In this document: positions 26,079 through 53,008 of the stretch, one piece after another
Position numbering within the stretch: the first letter of the stretch is position 1
Layout of the letters: each line of letters begins with the position of its first letter
Assembly (NCBI RefSeq): GCF_900009145.1
Contig: NZ_LN889812.1
Span: 310,258-368,568 of the forward strand
Source: Planktothrix tepida PCC 9214
Lineage (GTDB): Bacteria > Cyanobacteriota > Cyanobacteriia > Cyanobacteriales > Microcoleaceae
Direction of reading: 5' to 3'
DNA length: 58,311 bases
Notes under the pieces: model-generated
The model's database searches: none
What the model saw: only the letters and a program-made list of their open reading frames with translations
Told to the model about the DNA's origin: nothing
Program-made: the position numbers and the translations under genes

Positions 26079-26954
26079 ATGTTGATTGCTTCATCTGTTT
26101 CGCAAACTTGGATTTGGAAAGGCTTCCCCATTTGTTATGTGAGGGAGGGTAATAATGGCCCTGCGGTGATTCTAGTGCATGGGTTTGGTGCATCTTGGGG
26201 ACATTGGCGAAAAAATATCCCTGACTTAGCAAAACATTGTCGCGTCTTTGCATTAGATTTAATTGGCTTTGGAGGGTCAGCTAAACCCAAACCGACGGAA
26301 GAAATCAGTTATACTTTTGAAACTTGGGGACAACAAATCGCTGATTTTTGTCGAGAAGTTGTTCAAGAACCTGCTTTTTTAGTCGGAAATTCAATAGGTT
26401 GTATTGCGGTGATGCAGACCGCCATTGATCACCCTGATATTGTTCAAGAAGTTGCTTTATTAAACTGTTCTTTAAGATTATTACACGATCGCAAACGGGA
26501 TAAACTTCCTTGGTATCGTAATTATGGGGCGAGTGTTGCCCAAGGGTTATTAAAATATTCTTGGTTTAATCAATTCTTTTTTAAACAATTAGCAACGCCT
26601 CAAACTGTTAAAAAAGTATTATTACAAGCTTATCAACGGGATGAAGCCGTTACGGATGAATTAGTCGAAATGTTATTAAAACCTGCCCAAGATCAAGGTG
26701 CAGTAGATGTTTTTGCTGCCTTTACTCGCTATTCTCAGGGGCCATTACCAGAAGATTTATTCCCTAAATTACCCTGTAAAGCAATAATATTATGGGGAAC
26801 GGATGATCCTTGGGAACCGATAGAATTGGGAGAAGAATTTAAACAGTATTCAACAGTTAAACAGTTTATTCGATTAGAAGGAGTCGGTCATTGTCCCCAG
26901 GATGAAGCCCCCGAATTAGTTAATCCTATTTTATTAGATTGGATGCTGTCTTAA
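26079..26954 (+). CDS. Alpha/beta-fold hydrolase
   Basis: A 291-residue alpha/beta hydrolase with the oxyanion motif HGFGASWGHW (34-43), the nucleophile S105 in GNSIGC, an acid in WGTDDPWEP near 245, and H in GVGHCPQDEAPE near 271. The catalytic triad looks complete. It resembles cyanobacterial and plastid hydrolases related to pheophytinase and epoxide hydrolase, but the substrate cannot be told. The last codons lie next to the promoter of the restriction-like module, with which it is probably not co-regulated. Confidence 0.8.
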   Translation: MLIASSVSQTWIWKGFPICYVREGNNGPAVILVHGFGASWGHWRKNIPDLAKHCRVFALDLIGFGGSAKPKPTEEISYTFETWGQQIADFCREVVQEPAFLVGNSIGCIAVMQTAIDHPDIVQEVALLNCSLRLLHDRKRDKLPWYRNYGASVAQGLLKYSWFNQFFFKQLATPQTVKKVLLQAYQRDEAVTDELVEMLLKPAQDQGAVDVFAAFTRYSQGPLPEDLFPKLPCKAIILWGTDDPWEPIELGEEFKQYSTVKQFIRLEGVGHCPQDEAPELVNPILLDWMLS

Positions 26955-26977
26955 AATTAGCGATCGCTCTCATGCGA

Positions 26978-26983
26978 TATAAT
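26978..26983 (+). promoter_or_regulatory. Candidate -10 of the restriction-like module
   Basis: A perfect TATAAT lies just past the hydrolase stop, with no good -35 17 bp upstream. A transcript from about 26990 would have a leader near 48 nt to the ATG at 27038. This argues against the longer in-frame starts at 26939 and 26972. Confidence 0.4.
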
Positions 26984-27037
26984 AAACTAAATCGACCCAG
27001 CATAAAACTAACCTCCACCAGTAAATTTTGCTCCAGT

Positions 27038-28180
27038 ATGACCGACACTATTAAACCACCCATCCAAAAAATTCTGTTTGGCTGTCCAGGGACAGGGAAA
27101 AGCTACAAAATTCGCGAAATTGCTGAAAACCAGCTAAACATAACCTTTGATTCAGATACTAAAATTCTTAAAAATACGGTCAAAACGGTATTCCATCCTG
27201 AATATACCTATGGTGACTTCATGGGTAAACTGTTACCTCTGACTCAGGGAACTAACGTAATGTATAAGTTTTACCCTGGACATTTTTTAAAAGTCTTGGG
27301 AATGGCTTACCGAGGGTTAATAGAGGGAAATAATGAACATTACTTATTAGTGATTGATGAACTCAACCGAGGGAATGCGGCTGCTATTTTTGGAACAGTT
27401 TTTCAACTTTTAGATCGAGAAAGTGATCATTGGTCTAGTTATGAGGTTGATGTTTCTGAAATGGAGTTAGTAGGATTATTAAATTCAATGGGATATAAAA
27501 TCAATGTCCTAAGCGATGGTTCAATTAAAATTCATGAGAATAGAACAACGGAGAATCTATTTGATACATTTTGTAAAGAACTAGAAATTGATTTAAAAAA
27601 TAAAAGTAACAATAACGGCTTAAGAGTTTTAGAGCTTCTCAAGCAAAACAAAATTAGTATTCCTCAAAATTTATCTATTATAGCAACAATTAATACTTCT
27701 GATGAATCAATTTATTATCTTGATACTGCATTTAAACGCCGTTGGTCTTATGAACAAATTTCAATCGAAAGTAGTAAAAAAATGTTTGAATTAAAATACA
27801 AGGAAATTTTGAACGAAGTAAAATTAGTTATACCAAATGGGCAAAAATCCACAATAGAGCTAGAATGGATTCCCATTTTAGAAGGCATTAATGAAATTAT
27901 CAAAGATAATTATAAGACTATTAAAAGGATTGAAGATAAACAAATCGGCTTTTGGTTTATTAAACCTGATGACAGTGGAAAAATACATTTAAAAGAAATT
28001 CAGAGTAAACTAATGTTCTATCTTTGGGATAGTGTTTTTGCTAGAGATAAAAGACCCCTAGAAGAATTTATTTCAAAAGCTGTTCAAACAGATGTTAAAT
28101 TAATTACTTATGATGATTTTGTTAAGTATACAAAAAATATCTTTGAATATCTAGATGAACAAAAACCGATTCCTTTTTAA
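27038..28180 (+). CDS. McrB-like AAA+ GTPase subunit of a restriction system
   Basis: A motor protein of about 380 residues of the McrB AAA+ branch, expected to hydrolyse GTP and drive a partner nuclease along DNA. The Walker A is GCPGTGKS at 15-22. Next come VFHPEYTYGDFMGKLLP (the McrB FHPsYsYeDF block), the Walker B VIDELNRGNAAAIFG, and sensor/arginine-finger region TINTSDESIYYLDTAFKRRW. An insert of about 85 residues splits the AAA core after LLDRESDHW. It begins almost at Walker A, so the N-terminal DNA-recognition domain of E. coli McrB is missing. The nuclease gene follows after 21 bp. Confidence 0.82.
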   Translation: MTDTIKPPIQKILFGCPGTGKSYKIREIAENQLNITFDSDTKILKNTVKTVFHPEYTYGDFMGKLLPLTQGTNVMYKFYPGHFLKVLGMAYRGLIEGNNEHYLLVIDELNRGNAAAIFGTVFQLLDRESDHWSSYEVDVSEMELVGLLNSMGYKINVLSDGSIKIHENRTTENLFDTFCKELEIDLKNKSNNNGLRVLELLKQNKISIPQNLSIIATINTSDESIYYLDTAFKRRWSYEQISIESSKKMFELKYKEILNEVKLVIPNGQKSTIELEWIPILEGINEIIKDNYKTIKRIEDKQIGFWFIKPDDSGKIHLKEIQSKLMFYLWDSVFARDKRPLEEFISKAVQTDVKLITYDDFVKYTKNIFEYLDEQKPIPF

Positions 28181-28201
28181 ATTTTATTAAAATAAGCAAA
28201 A

Positions 28202-30115
28202 ATGATTAACTTTAATAATCTTGAACTGGTTGTTAATGAAAAATATTCTTTTGTTGGACTAGAACGGCGTAACTCCCAAATTCGTTTTTGTCTACCGAAA
28301 GGATTTCCTAATAAACCAAAAGAACTTCAAACCTTTGACTTTAATACAAAGCGTGACTTATTTTTTATGCTTTACAAAGTCTTTGACAAATTTAAGAATA
28401 TTTGTATAGAAAAAGGGTATTTAGAAGAAAATAATAAAATGACTACACGTGACCGAGATGGTATGGTAAAAATTCATAAAGGTGCAGATATTACCGAAGA
28501 TGACGAGTTAGATGAAAATATTTTTTATTCTAAACTCGATATGATTAGTGGAATATTGAACGCCCATGATGAACCCAAGATTTTAAGTTTAGTTTATCGA
28601 CTGGGTAGGTCAGACAGTTTTGATCATAGTCAAATTCACAAATTTTTACATCGTGCTGTTTTTTTACGGAATGGTGCTGCTTATATTGACTCGATGGACT
28701 TACCCCGTCAACAGGTTCGCTTTCAGTCAACAGATATTGTGGCGATGTACTGTTATATTTTATGGGAAATCAAACAACAACTTCAGCAGGAAGTTGGCGT
28801 AGAAATTAAAGCTCTAGCAGAACAGTTTAAACAACACTATATCGGTGGAAATTATGGTTTATTTGAAGAAGAATATTATAGCCAAGTGATCGATAGTTTA
28901 AAAGATGCGTTAGAGTTAATTGATCACAATACCCCCTTTAAAGATATTGACTATTGGCAATTTTATGATGCAATAGAGTTATTCCTATATGGAGAACTTC
29001 GTCAAACGGATGAGGGTGAGATCTGGGGAATTAAAAACTTTCATAGTGTTTGGGAGTCGATGTGTTTAACTTATATAGTAAAAGAAAATCTTAATTATCT
29101 GCTGCATTTAGATAGTCATTTTATCTCTAATTATTGGCTTAAATTGTTCAATAGTTATTCAAAAATAGTTCCTTTATCTAATGATTTATTTAAAATCAAT
29201 GGTTTTCCGCTTGTTCCTGATGCAGTAGTTTTTTCATCCATTTTGAATAATATAGAAGAAAGACGCTATGAAATTTATCCAAATCTAGGTTGGAATGATT
29301 ATAATTATTACACCGAATTTATATTAAATCAAGATCAAGTATTGAAAATTGCTCATGCTCACCAGGATATAGACGAACATACATTTGATTTAATGAATAA
29401 TTATGATACAAAATACATGGATAAAAACCATCAAAAATACAACGCCATATCAAAAGAAAAATTAATAATTAATAAACCTTTGCCTATTGAATTTAGCTCA
29501 TTTTGGCTAATTAATCCTCCAAAATTAAATATTGAAGAAGTGTATAAAATGTATTGTTTTAATCATTTGTTTTATATATACCTCAATATTTATATGCTTA
29601 AAAACTTTGATTTATGGGAAACAGTAAACAATCAAAAATTTGAACCTGAGATCCAAAATGAAAAGGAGTTTAAAGATGGATGGTATTTTCGTCTTAAAGA
29701 TATTATTAAAACTTCACTATTAAGGGTAGGAACACAAGAAATGACTGAGCAAGAAGTTAATGAGCAATTAAATCAATTTCTTCAATCTCTTCAAAAAATT
29801 TTCTCTATAAATGATAATTATATTGATATTATTGATATAAAATATTATGAGATTGATTATCTATTAGATTCAAAAAATAATATAGAAGATATAAAAGATA
29901 GAAGTGTTAGAAAGCAGTTTGTTTATGAATATCTGATGCAAAAGAAACTTGAAAAGTTTCCCAAATTAAAAATTCGTAGTAGTTTTTGGCTACCAGGATA
30001 TAATCAAAAATCTATGATTGAGGATGGACAGAAGTTTATGGATGGATATATTCACCTTAAAACCGTTGATTTTGTAAAGTTAGCTGAAAGTTATGTATCT
30101 GATAATTTTGGATAA
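28202..30115 (+). CDS. McrC/LlaJI-like PD-(D/E)XK nuclease subunit
   Basis: A 637-residue protein paired with the McrB-like motor. A candidate PD-(D/E)XK core is VPD (P339-D340) and DIK (D545-I-K547), then RKQFVYEYLMQ near 570-580, matching the Y-Q helix of McrC nucleases. The block IWGIKNFHSVWESMC near 274-288 recalls the LlaJI endonuclease family. About 200 residues separate the two catalytic motifs, longer than usual, and the first 300 residues may bind DNA. Composition is more AT-rich than its surroundings, a sign of transfer. No methyltransferase gene is nearby. Confidence 0.72.
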   Translation: MINFNNLELVVNEKYSFVGLERRNSQIRFCLPKGFPNKPKELQTFDFNTKRDLFFMLYKVFDKFKNICIEKGYLEENNKMTTRDRDGMVKIHKGADITEDDELDENIFYSKLDMISGILNAHDEPKILSLVYRLGRSDSFDHSQIHKFLHRAVFLRNGAAYIDSMDLPRQQVRFQSTDIVAMYCYILWEIKQQLQQEVGVEIKALAEQFKQHYIGGNYGLFEEEYYSQVIDSLKDALELIDHNTPFKDIDYWQFYDAIELFLYGELRQTDEGEIWGIKNFHSVWESMCLTYIVKENLNYLLHLDSHFISNYWLKLFNSYSKIVPLSNDLFKINGFPLVPDAVVFSSILNNIEERRYEIYPNLGWNDYNYYTEFILNQDQVLKIAHAHQDIDEHTFDLMNNYDTKYMDKNHQKYNAISKEKLIINKPLPIEFSSFWLINPPKLNIEEVYKMYCFNHLFYIYLNIYMLKNFDLWETVNNQKFEPEIQNEKEFKDGWYFRLKDIIKTSLLRVGTQEMTEQEVNEQLNQFLQSLQKIFSINDNYIDIIDIKYYEIDYLLDSKNNIEDIKDRSVRKQFVYEYLMQKKLEKFPKLKIRSSFWLPGYNQKSMIEDGQKFMDGYIHLKTVDFVKLAESYVSDNFG

Positions 30116-31193: not shown

Positions 31194-31222
31194 TTGACAT
31201 TGAGCGATCACTGTGCTAGGGT
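31194..31222 (+). promoter_or_regulatory. Strong sigma-70-type promoter of the aroF leader
   Basis: TTGACA at 31194-31199 and TAGGGT at 31217-31222 are spaced by exactly 17 bp. TG precedes the -10 by one base (TGC-TAGGGT), giving an extended -10. Transcription should begin near 31229, about 30 nt before the first leader ATG and 350 nt before aroF. I see no comparable promoter between the leaders and aroF. Confidence 0.75.
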
Positions 31223-31258
31223 CGTAGAAACGAACATATAAGTTTGATCAAAACACCC

Positions 31259-31318
31259 ATGCCAATTCGGAATTGCTATTACTTTTATTTTTGGTGTAGC
31301 ACGGTTCACAGAGAGTGA
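31259..31318 (+). CDS. Leader peptide 1 of aroF (aromatic attenuator)
   Basis: A 19-codon ORF encodes MPIRNCYYFYFWCSTVHRE. Residues 7-12 are six aromatic amino acids in a row (two Phe, three Tyr, one Trp). It starts 30 nt after the predicted transcription start, and its last codons (ACG GTT CAC) form one strand of the antiterminator described next. No strong ribosome binding site is seen, as is common in cyanobacteria. The product is presumably non-functional as a protein; ribosome stalling on the codons when charged aromatic tRNAs are scarce is the expected role. Confidence 0.8.
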   Translation: MPIRNCYYFYFWCSTVHRE

Positions 31319-31376
31319 ATCCATTGGTGTATGGAAACTCCCTAGTGAACCGCAGAAACAAAGGCTGCGGTTTTTT
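31302..31376 (+). promoter_or_regulatory. Attenuator 1: competing antiterminator and terminator
   Basis: CGGTTCAC (31302-31309), inside the last codons of leader 1, pairs perfectly with GTGAACCG (31345-31352). This encloses further stems GAGT/ACTC and TCCAT/ATGGA, about 19 bp in all. The fold uses up the first five bases of the terminator arm AACCGCAG (31348-31355). A ribosome at the TGA (31316-31318) would cover the first strand and let the terminator form. Stalling upstream on the aromatic codons would leave it free and allow read-through. Confidence 0.75.
31348..31376 (+). terminator. Intrinsic terminator of attenuator 1
   Basis: An 8-bp stem AACCGCAG/CTGCGGTT with a 9-nt loop, followed by a run of six T ending at 31376. 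It would release an RNA of about 150 nt. It lies between leader peptide 1 and leader peptide 2. Confidence 0.75.
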
Positions 31377-31412
31377 AATGGTCAACCTTCTCGGCTTTAC
31401 AGCAAAACAGCA

Positions 31413-31478
31413 ATGACAAACTTTATCCAATCTTGGTTTTATAGCTTTTATTTTTGGCCCCGAACAGGTTCTGGGTAA
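31413..31478 (+). CDS. Leader peptide 2 of aroF (aromatic attenuator)
   Basis: A 21-codon ORF begins MTNFIQS, continues WFYSFYFW (residues 8-15) and ends PRTGSG. Eight of its 21 residues are aromatic: four Phe, two Tyr, two Trp. It lies 36 nt after terminator 1. The codon run for FYFW (TTTTATTTTTGG) is identical in both leaders, pointing to duplication. Its last three codons before TAA (31476-31478) coincide with the antiterminator strand 31466-31475. The design repeats that of leader 1 in every element. Confidence 0.82.
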   Translation: MTNFIQSWFYSFYFWPRTGSG

Positions 31479-31538
31479 AGTTTGCTGCTGTTTTCACAAA
31501 CGCCAAGCCCGGAACCTCAAACAGGTTTCGGGCTTTTT
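31466..31538 (+). promoter_or_regulatory. Attenuator 2: competing antiterminator and terminator
   Basis: AGGTTCTGGG (31466-31475) can pair over all 10 bases (one G-U) with CCCGGAACCT (31508-31517). That second segment is also the 5' arm of the terminator that pairs with AGGTTTCGGG (31523-31532). The two hairpins exclude each other. A small GTTTG/CAAAC stem (31480-31501) sits in the antiterminator loop. The leader 2 stop codon directly adjoins the first strand, so a ribosome finishing the leader would block the antiterminator. Confidence 0.8.
31505..31538 (+). terminator. Intrinsic terminator of attenuator 2
   Basis: A 13-bp stem, AAGCCCGGAACCT/AGGTTTCGGGCTT with one G-U pair, has a CAAAC loop and a T-run at 31534-31538. 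It lies 41 bp before the aroF start and would stop transcription ahead of the gene. Confidence 0.88.
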
Positions 31539-31578
31539 AAATGCTTACCGTTTCTATGAACACAAAAGGAGAATTCCC

Positions 31579-32433
31579 ATGTTAGACGCTAAACTCGTTT
31601 CTAAAACCCATCCTGAACATCAAACCGTTATTAATATTTCCGATACCGTGACTGTCGGAGGTCAAGACTTATTAATTATTGGTGGCCCCTGTGCGGTGGA
31701 AAGTTTAGAACAAATGGAACAAGTCGCCCGCCATCTCGCCCATACTTCAGTACAAATGTTGCGAGGCGGGGTCTTCAAACCGAGAACCTCTCCCTACTCC
31801 TTCCAAGGTCTAGCTTTGGAAGGACTTCATATTTTAAAGGGTATTAGTCAACGCCATCATATTCCTGTTGTGACCGAGGTAATGTCTATTGAACAAATTG
31901 AATCTGTTGTAACTTATGCAGATATGCTGCAAATTGGAAGCCGCAATATGCAGAATTTTGAATTATTAAAAGCTTTGGGAAAAGCGGGTAAACCTGTTCT
32001 ATTAAAACGAGGTTTAGCAGCAACTATAGAAGAATTTGTGATGGCGGCTGAATATATTTTAAGTCATGGCAACCCTAACGTTATTTTATGTGAACGGGGT
32101 ATTCGCAGTTTCGATAATTTCACCCGCAATGTGTTAGATTTAGGGGCTGTTGTTGGTTTAAAACAGTTAACCCATTTACCTGTTATTGTTGATCCATCCC
32201 ATGCGGTCGGAAAACGAGAATTAGTTGAACCTTTAGCAAAAGCCGCTATTGCTTGTGGGGCGGATGGACTGATTATTGAATGTCATCCTGAACCGGAAAA
32301 ATCCGTTTCTGATGCTAGACAAGCCTTATCTTTAGAAGATATGGCGGAGTTGGTTAATCATTTACGTCCCGTTGCGGTAGCTGTCGGACGAGAGATTCTT
32401 CAGGTTGAATCTCCAGCACTGGCATTCGTTTAA
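31579..32433 (+). CDS. aroF: 3-deoxy-7-phosphoheptulonate (DAHP) synthase, type I-beta
   Basis: This 284-residue enzyme condenses phosphoenolpyruvate and erythrose 4-phosphate, the entry step of the shikimate pathway to Phe, Tyr and Trp. Motifs are IGGPCAVES (metal ligand C38), RGGVFKPRTSPYSFQG (62-77), LLKRG, VDPSHAVGKRE and IIECHPEPEKSVSD. The length is that of a bare I-beta catalytic barrel: no N-terminal ACT/ferredoxin-like or chorismate-mutase domain is present, so the usual allosteric module is lacking. AAGGAG lies 7 bases before the ATG. The two attenuators upstream offer transcriptional control instead. Confidence 0.95.
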   Translation: MLDAKLVSKTHPEHQTVINISDTVTVGGQDLLIIGGPCAVESLEQMEQVARHLAHTSVQMLRGGVFKPRTSPYSFQGLALEGLHILKGISQRHHIPVVTEVMSIEQIESVVTYADMLQIGSRNMQNFELLKALGKAGKPVLLKRGLAATIEEFVMAAEYILSHGNPNVILCERGIRSFDNFTRNVLDLGAVVGLKQLTHLPVIVDPSHAVGKRELVEPLAKAAIACGADGLIIECHPEPEKSVSDARQALSLEDMAELVNHLRPVAVAVGREILQVESPALAFV

Positions 32434-52826: not shown

Positions 52827-53008
52827 GCTATATATTTTTTTCTTAAACGTGGTATAATTTTAATAATAAAAATCAATAGTAAATCGTTCATCTCCCCCAA
52901 GCACTAAACAGGAGGGTGATATTTTAGTTGTTTGGAGAAGACGGAAGTAGGGAATTTTCCCGAAGGAACGCACAACACTGTTTTACCTCAAATGAAAGGT
53001 TGGTAGTG

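Follow-up and report, generated by a model that had tools for sequence, protein, structure and literature searches.

The window analysed here, a stretch of 58,311 nucleotides from the cyanobacterium Planktothrix tepida PCC 9214, contains a DAHP synthase gene, aroF, whose upstream neighbor on the opposite strand encodes a peptide deformylase. Between the two genes lie a promoter-like site and two consecutive units, each of which comprises a small open reading frame (ORF) rich in codons for aromatic amino acids, the 5' side of a putative antiterminator (strand 2) within the last leader codons, a strand 3 shared by the antiterminator and a competing hairpin, and a T-run (Table 1). All these elements, including the aromatic runs of the two leaders and the identity of the downstream gene, had been named in an initial annotation of this DNA, and each was recovered at its place. 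Across the 58-kb window, on both strands, the combination of an aromatic small ORF, a hairpin and a T-run occurs in these two units only. Elsewhere in the window, a glutamine riboswitch (RF01739) is predicted above the gathering score at 52883-52974, and positions 26939-30115 encode a weakly McrB-like protein (PRK11331, E 1.5e-11, below the cut-off) and, after it, a 637-aa protein that matches no NCBIfam entry, perhaps an McrBC-like restriction pair.

Table 1. Features of the aroF leader region and the aroF gene in window coordinates.
Feature	Position	Strand	Evidence
Promoter-like site, TTGACA-N17-TAGGGT, with TGC just before the -10	31194..31222	+	sequence; similar sites in relatives
Leader ORF 1, MPIRNCYYFYFWCSTVHRE, aromatic run YYFYFW	31259..31318	+	sequence, relatives, pN/pS
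Unit 1 strand 2 (antiterminator 5' side), within the last leader 1 codons	31302..31316	+	fold, duplex, covariation
Unit 1 strand 3 (antiterminator 3' side and terminator 5' arm)	31337..31355	+	fold, duplex, covariation
Intrinsic terminator 1 with T-run (predicted)	31347..31376	+	fold, unit rule, covariation
Leader ORF 2, MTNFIQSWFYSFYFWPRTGSG, aromatic run WFYSFYFW	31413..31478	+	sequence, relatives, pN/pS
Unit 2 strand 2 (antiterminator 5' side), AGGTTCTGGG, last leader 2 codons	31466..31475	+	duplex, covariation
Unit 2 strand 3 (antiterminator 3' side and terminator 5' arm)	31505..31517	+	fold, duplex, covariation
Intrinsic terminator 2 with T-run (predicted)	31505..31538	+	fold, unit rule, covariation
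aroF, DAHP synthase	31579..32433	+	NCBIfam PRK08673 and TIGR01361 above cut-offs; Pfam DAHP_synth_1

The -35 element TTGACA (31194-31199) is separated by a 17-nt spacer from the -10 element TAGGGT (31217-31222), a placement that makes the predicted transcription start near 31229 reasonable. In unit 1, the core of the antiterminator is formed by GGTTCAC (31303-31309) and GTGAACC (31345-31351), and the terminator pairs the arm GAACCGCAG (31347-31355) with CTGCGG, its 3' part through the T-run, CTGCGGTTTTTT, ending at 31376. In unit 2, strand 2 (31466-31475) pairs with CCCGGAACCT (31508-31517), and the terminator arms are AAGCCCGGAACCT (31505-31517) and AGGTTTCGGGCTTTTT (31523-31538). The predicted terminators fold with -13.4 kcal/mol in unit 1 and -21.2 kcal/mol in unit 2, and in each case none of 200 shuffled sequences was equally stable. 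A simple promoter and terminator scanner reported neither this promoter nor either terminator; the -10 element agrees with the consensus at three of six positions, the loop of the unit 1 terminator measures 9 nt against a scanner limit of 8, and the stem of the unit 2 terminator was probably counted into its T-run. Thus, short ORFs rich in codons for the products of the pathway, predicted intrinsic terminators between leader and aroF that are conserved in relatives, and antiterminators that exclude the terminators through a common strand 3 are all present at this locus.

When 388 genomes of the class were searched at the protein level, 286 yielded a DAHP synthase (E <= 1e-60). The 142 proteins with E < 1e-113, the window protein included, together with two from a separate search of 10 genomes of the genus, constitute a set of 144 orthologues that span 17 families according to the labels of the genome collection. 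Two further loci, probably orthologous but truncated at contig ends (G068:C147 and G270:C107), were left out, and six proteins with 52-57% identity (L155-L160) as well as two paralogue copies with 49-50% identity (L161 and L162) were kept apart. Under a rule that combines an ORF with a terminator, at least one unit was found upstream of all 144 orthologues and two units upstream of 126; the same rule recovered no unit in the 144 antisense sequences and, among 720 dinucleotide shuffles, one unit in three and two units in none. Rescanning of the 18 one-unit cases with covariance models identified both units in 10, which raises the two-unit count to 136 of 144, plus one locus (L037) where unit 1 is cut by the contig end. 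By the same models, unit 1 alone is present in five orthologues (L112, L144, L150, L152 and L153) and unit 2 alone in two (L083 and L146). In a set of named loci (80 kept out of 395 relatives, four of them with too little upstream DNA), 68 of the remaining 76 carry two units, seven carry one and one carries none. Both units are found in Lyngbya aestuarii, Hydrocoleum, Trichodesmium, Microseira wollei, Anabaena subtropica, Nostoc carneum, Scytonema, Richelia sinica, Mastigocoleus and Kamptonema. Most of the sampled genomes of the class have no window-type aroF orthologue, and the attenuator accompanies this type of aroF (about 142 of the 388 class genomes) rather than cyanobacteria at large. 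The units had been described as duplicated in series; the series arrangement stands, whereas an origin by duplication is conjectural, each covariance model matching the other unit only weakly (E 0.003-0.022).

Two loci outside the orthologue set deserve mention. A contig filed under a Candidatus Obscuribacter metagenome-assembled genome (MAG; L242) carries an aroF with 75% identity preceded by both leaders, and this gene is either misbinned or transferred. In a Microcoleus MAG (L167:1-394), the upstream region is rearranged such that the unit 2 terminator and the aromatic run are kept; no start codon of a leader qualified in the scan, and the 394 nt examined show no unit 1.

The conserved blocks in the alignments correspond to the aromatic codons and to strands 2, 3 and 4. 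In much of the set, leader 1 takes the form YFYFW...VH(R/L)E and leader 2 the form WFYGFYFW(P/T)R..SG, each with variations. At the 124 loci of the 144 with exactly two units, which were used for the codon analysis and the folding model, the aromatic core contains Phe and Trp in every leader of both units and Tyr in 120 leaders of unit 1 and 112 of unit 2. The pN/pS ratio at the aromatic positions is 0.23 in leader 1 and 0.18 in leader 2, values that are somewhat biased because the leaders were picked for aromatic density. The aromatic codons thus appear to change mostly synonymously, and on this comparative evidence the leaders look translated. Shine-Dalgarno-like sites precede only seven of the 124 leaders 1 and 12 of the 124 leaders 2. 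A doubled aromatic run, WFYSVYFWFGFYFW, is present in leader 2 of one locus (L034, 172 to 91 nt before aroF), where the sensing codons seem to have been repeated internally.

When helices were sought in the alignments without guidance, the two longest distinct ones in each unit were the proposed antiterminator and the proposed terminator. In unit 1, with pair counts made on non-redundant sets throughout (69 and 73 of 126), 94.1% of the alignment cells of the antiterminator are paired (85.5% in shuffles and at most 53.6% in slid versions of the helix), 71 cells are changed on both sides, and eight of 11 pairs show such double-sided changes; for the terminator, 98.0% of the cells are paired (shuffles, 94.0%), with 27 compensatory cells and changes at six of 10 pairs. 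The unit 2 antiterminator is paired in 90.2% of the cells (shuffles, 86.6%), with 40 compensatory cells and three of nine pairs, and the unit 2 terminator in 89.8% (shuffles, 85.2%), with 60 compensatory cells and five of 11 pairs. For both helices of unit 2, two of the five measures, namely the count of pairs with double changes and the count of pair types, do not exceed the shuffles. Slid versions of all four helices are paired in at most 61% of the cells. Across the 126 loci, strand 2 forms a more stable duplex with the strand 3 from the same genome than with those from other genomes, the respective means being -24.75 vs -20.02 kcal/mol in unit 1 and -19.14 vs -16.85 kcal/mol in unit 2. Inspection by eye shows that in some relatives (for example, L042, L076, L081, L107 and L135) the unit 2 antiterminator is shifted to strands resembling CCGGGTCAGG and CCTGACCCGG, with complementarity kept. 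A protector hairpin between strands 1 and 2 is weakly supported by the alignments, being paired in 73.2% of the cells in unit 2, and a hairpin at the stop codon of unit 1 is conserved (92.5%) without covariation. The initial annotation had named a lack of conserved leader ORFs or hairpins in relatives among the results that would refute its proposal. Most of the 144 orthologues conserve the leaders and both alternative helices, the latter with covariation, and the attribution of a trp/phe type of attenuator logic to this locus is strengthened accordingly.

In the model of ribosome position, run for the 124 loci, the ribosome shadows 13 nt downstream of the A site and the RNA stops short of strand 4. 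With the A site six to three codons before the last aromatic codon, the probability of the antiterminator is about 0.9 in unit 1 and about 0.8 in unit 2. In unit 1, the two final aromatic codons bring it down to 0.62 and then 0.23. For unit 2, the values are 0.68 at the final aromatic codon and 0.25 two codons further on, and the stop codon gives 0.00 in both units. For the window sequence, the values in unit 1 are 0.98-0.99 on the codons for Y, Y, F, Y and F, 0.43 on that for W and 0.00 at the stop; in unit 2, the aromatic codons that were examined give 0.67 and the stop codon 0.00. Hence strand 2 is predicted to be exposed when the ribosome resides on the regulatory codons and covered when it reaches the stop codon. 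Unit 1 is an exception at its final one or two aromatic codons: the model releases the antiterminator there, and a ribosome halted at the final aromatic codon would mostly fail to bring about antitermination. Without a ribosome, the antiterminator probability is 0.89 in unit 1, and in unit 2 it is 0.52 on average and 0.00 in the window sequence. At equilibrium with strand 4 present, a stalled ribosome leaves the base of the terminator with a mean probability of 0.37-0.51 in unit 1 and of 0.56-0.69 in unit 2, compared with 0.90 (unit 1) and 0.95 (unit 2) for a ribosome at the stop codon. Because the base of the terminator persists at equilibrium in the stalled state, the switch would depend on which helix folds first, just as classical attenuators do. 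The equilibrium probability over all terminator pairs proved to be a poor measure, given that the upper pairs can coexist with the antiterminator and that the order of folding is ignored, and was supplemented by the truncated-RNA and base-of-terminator measures.

The best promoter-like site within the 120 nt before ORF 1 has a mean score of 9.13 in 123 relatives, compared with 7.30 in mononucleotide shuffles. Between the units, a candidate promoter is present in 48 of the 123 relatives with a mean score of 6.02, a comparison that is unfair because these stretches are shorter, many of them too short to score. In the genome that contains the window, each covariance model has one strong match, at aroF; the R2 model has three more at E 0.24-0.95, and no second site reaches E < 0.2. 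Among 155 genomes of the class, there are 49 strong unit 2 matches (E <= 1.2e-9), many of which come from loci that also trained the model. By contig and coordinates, 47 of these adjoin an aroF from the protein search, and the other two lie at contig ends, one before a truncated aroF (G118) and one with both leaders visible (G137). Weak class-wide matches to unit 2 fall at E 0.002-0.1, and 94 of the 155 genomes have no match at E <= 0.1. The aromatic-run pattern as such is not enriched in the window genome, since it occurs at 22 places compared with 17 for a reversed control pattern. The two TrpE-type genes of this genome (both TrpE-family matches being below the family cut-off), the prephenate dehydratase gene and the paralogous DAHP synthase gene lack aromatic units; among the places checked, the 22 pattern places included, aroF is the sole carrier. 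Under a looser rule, a WW-ending ORF with a hairpin was encountered inside the second TrpE-family match and was taken as a chance occurrence.

Taken together, the leaders with their coding selection, the mutually exclusive helices with covariation, the geometry of the units and, in the searches made, their location only beside aroF indicate that the leader region is very probably a two-stage ribosome-mediated transcription attenuator. RNA polymerase would start at the single promoter for both units, and in each unit a ribosome would follow the polymerase and translate a leader some 20 codons long and dense in codons for Phe, Tyr and Trp. When charged aromatic tRNA is scarce, the ribosome would stall on the aromatic run and leave strand 2 free to pair with strand 3, so that the terminator is blocked and the polymerase reads through. 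When aromatic amino acids are plentiful, the ribosome would reach the stop codon and cover strand 2; strands 3 and 4 would pair and transcription would stop. Only polymerases that pass both units would transcribe aroF, and two units in series should therefore give a tighter shut-off and a steeper response. The mechanism assumes tight coupling of ribosome and polymerase in cyanobacteria.

Several other readings of the same leader region have to be weighed. The conservation of the peptides beyond the aromatic residues, in VH(R/L)E and the terminal SG, is what would be expected of arrest peptides that, like TnaC, sense a free aromatic amino acid in the exit tunnel rather than codons. The conserved ends are, however, accounted for by RNA strand 2, in which GTTCAC codes for VH and TCCGGGTAA for SG-stop; moreover, the aromatic runs differ in order, length and spacing among relatives (the leaders having been chosen for aromatic density), and arrest at a high amino acid level would presumably expose strand 2 and boost precursor synthesis at a time of abundant product, which is the wrong sign. 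Such a mechanism therefore appears very unlikely. Even less credence can be given to a metabolite riboswitch or a T-box-like tRNA sensor with incidental ORFs. A 5' leader RNA of approximately 350 nt with alternative structures before an amino acid gene would suit either, but coding selection acts on the aromatic codons, and the conserved blocks coincide with these codons and the pairing strands. Rfam 15 includes the trp leader, phe leader and T-box families. A search with its covariance models gave no match in the aroF leader region at the gathering thresholds and, at E <= 5, yielded only two chance-level scores, to a snoRNA and a miRNA.

The seven orthologues that keep a single unit type suggest that one unit can suffice and would be compatible with one unit being active and the other being a fixed terminator or a relic. 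Given the coding and structural selection on both units in most of the 144 orthologues, this appears improbable, if somewhat less so than the preceding two readings. Within the favored two-stage attenuator, a more specific and rather doubtful possibility raised by the folding model is that the units, instead of being redundant, form an ordered two-step gate, which would let pass only transcripts with translated, aromatic-starved leaders. Unit 1 would open if its leader is stalled early or untranslated; in the model, unit 2 is less prone to open when no ribosome is present and so would need a true stall on the aromatic codons. If such a gate exists, a general loss of translation, for example in darkness, would be filtered out, and tight coupling of transcription and translation in cyanobacteria would be demonstrated.

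The AroF protein of the window has no match to the ferredoxin-like domain PF18152. This domain is present in the paralogous DAHP synthase of the same genome (310 residues scanned), which has no attenuator upstream. The absence of PF18152 suggests that AroF may be insensitive to feedback and that control at the RNA level may replace feedback inhibition. In the genus, window-type aroF is found in four of the 10 genomes; the other six, one of which is only 73% complete, have the 50% paralogue alone at the cut-off used. Because only four of the 10 genomes have this gene, aroF and its attenuators look to have been lost or gained within the genus. A DAHP synthase with 52% identity to the window AroF (L160:461-600, genome G029) is preceded by a single aromatic leader ORF, MKNSQFWYSFTFRSATGVRHRSG, and then a very strong predicted terminator (-25.1 kcal/mol), possibly an independent case of attenuation on a different DAHP synthase.

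If the two-stage attenuator is real, classical leader-peptide attenuation would be established in a phylum for which, according to a 2016 paper, there were no reliable data on attenuation (PMC4833913), and its conservation would extend to every examined orthologue of this aroF, across 17 families. It would also imply that ribosome and RNA polymerase are functionally coupled in cyanobacteria; in the window genome, the search for Rho turned up nothing beyond a weak family match that scored far under the cut-off. In these phototrophs, the shikimate pathway would gain transcriptional sensing of all three aromatic amino acids, located at a DAHP synthase without the ferredoxin-like domain, which is of relevance for the engineering of aromatic products in cyanobacteria. 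Two stacked attenuators that respond to one signal would also offer a natural test of why cells stack switches.

The enterobacterial trp, pheA and related attenuators of the Yanofsky type consist of a leader ORF with codons for the end product and of alternative 2:3 and 3:4 helices. The aroF region shares with them the short leader ORF, the competition between 2:3 and 3:4, the intrinsic terminator and the ribosome shadow at the stop codon; it differs in having two units in series, in the predicted sensing of three amino acids together by each unit, in its target, the first enzyme of the common pathway, in its occurrence in cyanobacteria, and in a strand 1:2 hairpin that is not clearly conserved. 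A close parallel to the tandem arrangement is Salmonella mgtCBR, where two leader ORFs and two attenuating regions reside in one leader RNA; there, the leaders are described as sensing ATP and proline and acting additively (PMC3641672), whereas both aroF leaders carry codons for the same amino acids (Phe and Trp at all 124 loci and Tyr at most) and the target is biosynthetic. Two attenuator units are also mentioned for a supraoperon of Streptococcus pneumoniae in a discussion of the Merino website (PMC1173090). With respect to the target gene, uORFC-13-1 of Acholeplasma is similar in that an upstream ORF, with suggested phenylalanine sensing, precedes a terminator of aroF; as described, it is set apart by a single unit, phenylalanine only, and 24 representatives from Acholeplasma and environmental sequences (PMC8632094). 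The Synechocystis actuatons resemble the aroF region in being cyanobacterial and in producing a short RNA that ends early and an mRNA by read-through; neither 'leader peptide' nor 'aroF' occurs in the main text of the respective article (PMC5386190). Among the open-access papers listed, judged by title and opening of the abstract, no report of a cyanobacterial leader-peptide attenuator was found, in agreement with the earlier statement that none was known. Thus, the mechanism is classical, and it is the phylum, the breadth of conservation, the sensing of three amino acids and the two-stage series that appear to be new.
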